Source: Auriscalpium vulgare (taxonomy: Eukaryota > Basidiomycota > Agaricomycetes > Russulales > Auriscalpiaceae). Taken from it: a stretch of 64,000 nt of DNA. The translations under genes and the position numbers were made by a program. The notes below the pieces were generated by a model. It had not been told where the DNA came from and ran no database searches. It saw only the letters and a program-made list of their open reading frames with translations. Position 1 is the first letter of the stretch; each line of letters starts with the position of its first letter. The stretch is from NCBI GenBank assembly GCA_019915015.1, contig JAHBBC010000017.1, positions 124,001-188,000 on the forward strand. The letters are read 5' to 3'. Positions 16,125 to 16,766 of this stretch are shown one piece after another.

Positions 16125-16766
16125 ATGAGCCTGTCTTCGTTCTTCTCATCCTTCGTTGGAGTCGTGCACGCCGACGCGCCTGAAGAAAAATCAGAGCCTG
16201 AGGCCAAGGAGGAGCCTCAGGAGGAGGAGGCTAAGGAGGAAGAAGAGGAAGAGGAACCAGAGGACGTGCGTCGCGTGCGGATTTCTTCGCGCCCAAGCAC
16301 TGACGGCCCGGGGCCGGCCTTCAGATCCATCCGGCGCTGCGCGAGGAGGCTCAGGAGTCGGCGAAGTGCAAGCCGTTGACGCACCACTTCCTGCAGTGCC
16401 AGGAGCGCGTACAGTCTGGCCAGGGCTTCAAGCACGAAGACTGCGTTGAGGAGATGTGAGTCTACTCCTCCCCAATATCTTACTGCTGCCGTTGCTTACC
16501 ATAATGTCGTAGGTGTATGTGCCAGCTATCAACTTTCGCATGACCATGCCGTACTGACTGCCCCGCTCCCTTCCGTTGCGTCTCGCGCGTTCTCTAGTCC
16601 AGTGCGTATATGCATATTTGATTCCCTGCGTTGGCTGACGCTGTACTGGATCAACAGCATGATGCACTGCACAGACGTAGACACTGTCCATTGCTGTAAA
16701 CCCGCACCTGGCTGACCAGTTTGACAGAATGAAGTTGCGCCAAAACTATTCGCTAAGCTGCGCTAG
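16125..16766 (+). CDS. qcr6: Ubiquinol-cytochrome c reductase hinge protein (complex III subunit 6)
   Basis: join(16125..16265, 16325..16455, 16513..16514, 16598..16601, 16658..16676, 16728..16766), 111 aa. The acidic hinge protein helps cytochrome c dock on cytochrome c1 in the inner mitochondrial membrane. Seen: a hydrophobic N-terminus MSLSSFFSSFVGVVHADAP, a long Glu-rich stretch, then IHPALREEAQESAKC, KPLTHHFLQC, HEDCVEEMFHMMHC and the end APKLFAKLR. The four Cys form a twin CX9C pattern, as the family requires. That pattern holds only if two microexons, GT (16513-16514) and TCCA (16598-16601), are included; they supply the end of Met plus Phe and most of His. Introns are 59, 57, 83, 56 and 51 bp; four have CTGAC branch points and the 57-bp one has CTTAC. 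The family call is very secure; the microexons are inferred. Confidence 0.9.

Follow-up and report, generated by a model that had tools for sequence, protein, structure and literature searches.

Two tandem microexons of 2 and 4 nt predicted in the QCR6 gene of Auriscalpium vulgare

Exons of 1–5 nt are on record and the ultra-short exon is, as a kind, already known. The accessible text on Arabidopsis APC11 describes a single-nucleotide exon that is constitutive and was at first missed in annotation; its authors favour intron definition with removal of both introns in succession, and the exon was tested with constructs (PMC4674806). In fungi, Fusarium CYP621A P450 genes contain a 1-nt exon within a conserved motif, backed by SRA reads according to the available portion of the report (PMC12940212). 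Exons below one codon are mentioned for genes of Phlebia radiata (PMC6540522), and P450 genes of Phanerochaete chrysosporium have microexons, the shortest named being 6 bp (PMC1184071), both as given in the accessible parts of these reports. Stwintrons, as described in the available sections, are fungal complex intron units that are removed consecutively and in which a splicing element of one intron is split by a second intron (PMC9024468, PMC6616335).

We analysed a 64,000-nt stretch of Auriscalpium vulgare DNA (the window), in which a preliminary description had proposed two consecutive microexons of 2 nt (GT) and 4 nt (TCCA) in QCR6. As far as the accessible text on APC11 goes, the two cases are alike in having an exon below codon length that annotation missed and in that intron definition is the likelier mode of recognition. 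Whereas APC11 is a plant gene with one 1-nt exon that was tested with constructs (PMC4674806), the QCR6 case is fungal and has two exons in tandem, of 2 and 4 nt, predicted from sequence. With CYP621A, in the portion of that report available, it shares a fungal host, a position inside a conserved motif, discovery via motif spacing together with an over-long intron, and wrong public models; but CYP621A is a Fusarium P450 with one 1-nt exon, and QCR6 belongs to the respiratory chain of an Agaricomycete and has two exons of this kind (PMC12940212). P. radiata and P. chrysosporium are Agaricomycetes, as is A. vulgare, and the accessible parts of those two reports gave no gene-level case of tandem 2- and 4-nt exons (PMC6540522, PMC1184071). 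A search of one collection of open literature returned no paper on QCR6 microexons, basidiomycete QCR6 introns or Agaricomycetes microexons with introns. What seems new is that the gene is QCR6, that the exons stand in tandem, that they are likely to be old and that the database error recurs. The 2-nt exon had been counted among the smallest known. It is indeed very small but no record, as the accessible texts on APC11 and CYP621A report exons of 1 nt (PMC4674806, PMC12940212).

The gene (Table 1) is QCR6, encoding the hinge subunit of mitochondrial complex III. Its joined 111-aa model matches Pfam UCR_hinge (PF02320) over profile positions 1–65 of 65 with 90.5 bits against a cut-off of 27.2, and a profile search across the 51.6-Mb genome reported this locus as its one UCR_hinge match. 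Checked against the sequence, the coordinates and letters of 16456-16657, of GT and of TCCA are as the preliminary description gave them, and the three introns of 57, 83 and 56 nt, with their GT-AG ends and CTTAC or CTGAC sites, are all where it had placed them. Translation also bears out its contrast between a direct splice from 16455 to 16658, which yields a CX7C, and inclusion of both microexons, which yields a CX9C (VEEMFHMMH). AT, GT, TCCA and C join to read ATG TTC CAC, completing the second CX9C, and the twin CX9C of fungal relatives is present in the QCR6 model with both microexons and absent from that with a 202-nt intron. The predicted junction stretch is GAGGAGATGTTCCACATGATG in the first case and GAGGAGATCATGATG when 16455 is joined to 16658. 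Both microexons are flanked by usable sites (TAG/GT/GTATGT and TAG/TCCA/GTGCGT). We estimate a probability of about 0.9 that GT and TCCA are two tandem microexons between three short GT-AG introns and that both would normally be included in the QCR6 mRNA of A. vulgare.

Table 1 Predicted features of the QCR6 gene in the window. Donor scores are based on positions 3-6 alone and are compared with those of 54 introns inferred in the same genome.
Feature	Position	Strand	Description
QCR6 whole gene	16125-16766	+	full 111-aa hinge protein once both microexons are spliced in
QCR6 exon 1	16125-16265	+	start codon, acidic N-terminal part; from translation
Intron 1	16266-16324	+	59 nt, GTGCGT...TCAG, CTGAC branch-like site
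QCR6 exon 2	16325-16455	+	first CX9C and first Cys of second CX9C
Intron a	16456-16512	+	57 nt, GTGAGT...GTAG, branch-like CTTAC; donor 3.93, at or above 33/54 inferred introns
2-nt microexon GT	16513-16514	+	third base of Met and first base of Phe
Intron b	16515-16597	+	83 nt, GTATGT...CTAG, branch-like CTGAC; donor 4.54, at or above 38/54 inferred introns
4-nt microexon TCCA	16598-16601	+	remainder of Phe and bases one and two of His
Intron c	16602-16657	+	56 nt, GTGCGT...ACAG, branch-like CTGAC; donor 3.85, at or above 30/54 inferred introns
19-nt exon	16658-16676	+	(H)MMHCTD, holds last Cys of CX9C
Last intron	16677-16727	+	51 nt, weak donor GTAGAC; resulting TDNEV also found in P0001
Last exon	16728-16766	+	NEVAPKLFAKLR and stop

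The splice reading was examined by enumeration, with exon ends varied between 16443 and 16676 and up to four GT-AG introns allowed, each 35 nt or longer. Among 387 combinations, 37 are open to the stop, two have a CX9C before CTDNEV and one has FHMMHC. The two with a CX9C are VEEMFHMMH, from the 2- and 4-nt microexons, and VEEMCIMMH, from a 6-nt exon GTGTAT. Adding GC donors with free ends gave 2,533 combinations (260 open), four of them with a CX9C (VEEMFHMMH, VEEMCIMMH, VEEIPVMMH and VYVAYIMMH); FHMMHC then appears in four readings, and the 2- plus 4-nt form is the only one with nine residues between the cysteines. When the ends were fixed at 16455 and 16658 and the minimum intron length was set to 20 nt, two solutions were obtained with GT-AG introns, three with GC donors added and 45 with AT donors and AC acceptors added as well. 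Readings with IFH among these 45 were rejected, as all depend on AC acceptors or on AT or GC donors. The proposed pair of consecutive microexons is the sole GT-AG reading tried that gives FHMMHC, the peptide seen in relatives, and of four QCR6 models it has the top UCR_hinge score, 90.5 bits compared with 76.0 for the direct splice and 81.2 and 81.8 for models with a single 6-nt exon. The 202-nt stretch was also dinucleotide-shuffled 20,000 times, with its first 6 and last 4 bases fixed and 40 nt as the minimum intron length. At least one GT-AG set that adds 6 nt existed in 4,131 of the shuffles, [MI][FY]H was produced in 5, and in none of the 20,000 did it come with GTRNGT donors and YAG acceptors. 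An extra 6 nt alone is therefore not rare; what is rare is the correct peptide in combination with good splice sites.

For comparison, 54 distinct introns were inferred by spliced alignment at this genome's genes for histones H3 and H4, calmodulin and actin; the set includes paralogues, five introns with AAG and one probably false 40-nt intron in L025, and none were removed. The actin-like places L019, L020 and L021 have near-equal scores (64% to yeast actin) and lie on two contigs, in addition to two places with 85-87% identity. The inferred introns have a median length of 56 nt and a maximum of 123 nt; YAG is found in 49/54 and GTRNGT in 32/54. Introns a, b and c lie within this range, in agreement with the earlier statement that they are like others here, and the 202-nt intron is longer than every one of the 54. 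The branch-like CTGAC of intron b is 40 nt from its acceptor, a small weakness of this intron; one of the 54 inferred introns has its sole such site at 39.

Competing donors fare poorly in the same comparison: GTGTAT, GTGCCA and GCGTAT each score at or above 2/54 inferred introns on positions 3-6. Two of them, GTGCCA and GCGTAT, would be needed if the gene contained one 6-nt microexon instead, either GTGTAT at 16513-16518, which reads VEEMCIMMH, or TCCAGT at 16598-16603, which uses a GC donor and reads VEEIPVMMH. The CX9C is kept in both versions, which account for two of the four such solutions found when GC donors are allowed besides GT and the ends are free, and pairs comparable to theirs (such as YV or CV) occur in 6/119 annotated models among the homologue matches listed. 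Besides the poor donors and the lower Pfam scores given above, neither CI nor PV is found in any of the 26 short-contig homologues among the matches listed, and we consider a 6-nt microexon highly improbable.

These homologues number 145 and are the best 120 of 287 and the best 120 of 357 matches from two protein searches, merged, with strain copies of the same species counted separately. The query of the second search was itself a seven-residue model, which enriches the seven-residue form among the matches listed. Their genera fall within Russulales, Polyporales, Boletales, Agaricales, Hymenochaetales, Corticiales and others. We sorted them by source column into short-contig (jgi, lgn, ena) and genome-annotated proteins; judged from their shortness and intact frames, the short contigs are probably transcripts. 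All 26 short-contig homologues among the matches listed have nine residues with FH or YH between the cysteines. The 119 genome-annotated ones among the matches listed comprise 70 with seven residues, 36 with nine (28 FH/YH, 6 with a false-looking pair and 2 others), 10 with longer inserts and 3 (P0048, P0106 and P0140) that were unparsable at the site and were kept in the denominators. In the first search alone (best 120 of 287), nine residues with FH/YH are found in 25/25 short-contig proteins, and the 95 annotated proteins divide into 47 that have seven residues, 28 that have nine including FH/YH, 18 other and 2 unparsed. Indels among the matches listed follow the same division: annotated proteins have them at the microexon site in 83/119 and elsewhere in the domain in 5/119, with the alignments of P0048 and P0106 stopping just past the site, and short-contig proteins in 0/26 and 2/26, respectively.

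The closest protein among the matches listed is P0001, from Auriscalpium vulgare (Russulales) itself, and it has the CX7C form. Since it equals the direct-splice model of the window bar one A/V change, it is a public model without both microexons. This near-identity would also be expected from a single 202-nt intron at 16456-16657 and a protein that is truly CX7C (VEEIMMH, 109 aa), which would stay in frame and give the seven-residue form of 70/119 annotated homologues among the matches listed. However, that form is found in 0/26 short-contig homologues among the matches listed, lowers the UCR_hinge score from 90.5 to 76.0 and calls for an intron exceeding all 54 inferred ones. Lentinula edodes, moreover, appears in the database with both forms (P0044 with VEEMFHMMH; P0115 and P0142 with VEEIMMH), and four solved-structure chains aligned to the 111-aa model are gapless here, two of them with Tyr for the second Cys. 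We regard the 202-nt intron as very unlikely.

Probable traces of skipped microexons can be read from the models of the relatives. The junction residue in the 70 seven-residue models among the matches listed is L in 31, F in 21, I in 18 and M in 0, whereas the same residue in the 54 full-length models among the matches listed is M in 26, L in 20, F in 7 and I in 1. L, F or I in 70/70 is explained if NT is joined straight to C and the microexons are skipped, so that Met becomes Ile just as it does in the window, and suggests that the relatives share the outer boundaries NT/ and /C. Six longer models among the matches listed have VH or DH ahead of MMH or LMH. The preceding residue is codable as NYA in 6/6 of them, which fits YAG/xCCA, where the acceptor is followed by TCCA or ACCA; estimated roughly by hand, this fit would arise by chance in ~1 case in 100. 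We take the CX7C in 70/119 annotated homologues among the matches listed for gene-finder artefacts. Within Agaricomycetes the two microexons probably go back a long way and have often escaped annotation, and from protein models we infer the 2 + 4 split in the relatives. A scan of viral contigs for related fungal DNA found no relative. Public fungal proteomes would thus contain a recurrent error, two residues missing at one place in these 70 of 119 listed annotated homologues, and the signature of two lost residues with an NTC-coded junction may be used for seeking ultra-short exons in further genes.

The short introns suggest intron definition. Each of the three 56-83-nt introns would probably be recognised in this way, and the tiny exon size would then be no obstacle to splice-site pairing. 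Because a 2-nt exon hardly holds two spliceosomes at once, the introns would probably be taken out in succession, and either end could go first. Such stepwise splicing, raised as a possibility in the preliminary description, is plausible and is the likely course for introns a, b and c. If intron a were removed first, GAGATGT/GTATGT would be left, with a score of 4.54 for the true donor versus -1.1 for the alternative AT/GTGTAT, so that a precise second step seems easy; a start from the opposite end of the microexon region would be equally possible. As an alternative route, zero-length recursive splicing was rejected: by coding logic GT would stay in the mRNA, as its loss with TCCA kept leads to an early stop, and the required donor AT/GTGTAT scores at or above only 2/54 inferred introns.

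A stwintron, a nested twin intron with no exon between its parts, is resembled by the short adjoining introns, with a donor nearly directly past an acceptor. Exonless removal of the whole stretch would, however, leave the same CX7C product as the 202-nt intron, and inspection by eye revealed no internal GT-AG intron dividing the first donor. We consider a stwintron highly improbable here. Unlike in stwintrons, as the available sections describe them, the GT and TCCA of QCR6 would be retained in the mRNA (PMC9024468, PMC6616335).

In translated QCR6 variants, dropping either microexon alone or retaining any one of the three introns a, b and c results in an early stop, while dropping both microexons together keeps the frame and gives the CX7C product. 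This pattern would permit two isoforms, full inclusion and an in-frame skip of both microexons, either regulated or noisy and compatible with inclusion as the normal form. Given that the 202-nt intron is atypical in the genome and that the skipped form occurs in 0/26 short-contig homologues among the matches listed, we think a second isoform unlikely. We lean towards an ancient, constitutive pair of 2- and 4-nt microexons across several Agaricomycetes orders, misread in many models, in which ordered intron removal guards a respiratory-chain protein. QCR6 would then be a natural housekeeping-gene substrate in which the spliceosome of a short-intron organism faces an exon that lacks room for two complexes.

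Three exons in a row in QCR6 are shorter than 20 nt, namely GT, TCCA and the 19-nt exon at 16658-16676. The donor of the last intron, GTAGAC (16677-16682), scores under all 54 inferred introns, yet the residues joined there match P0001.
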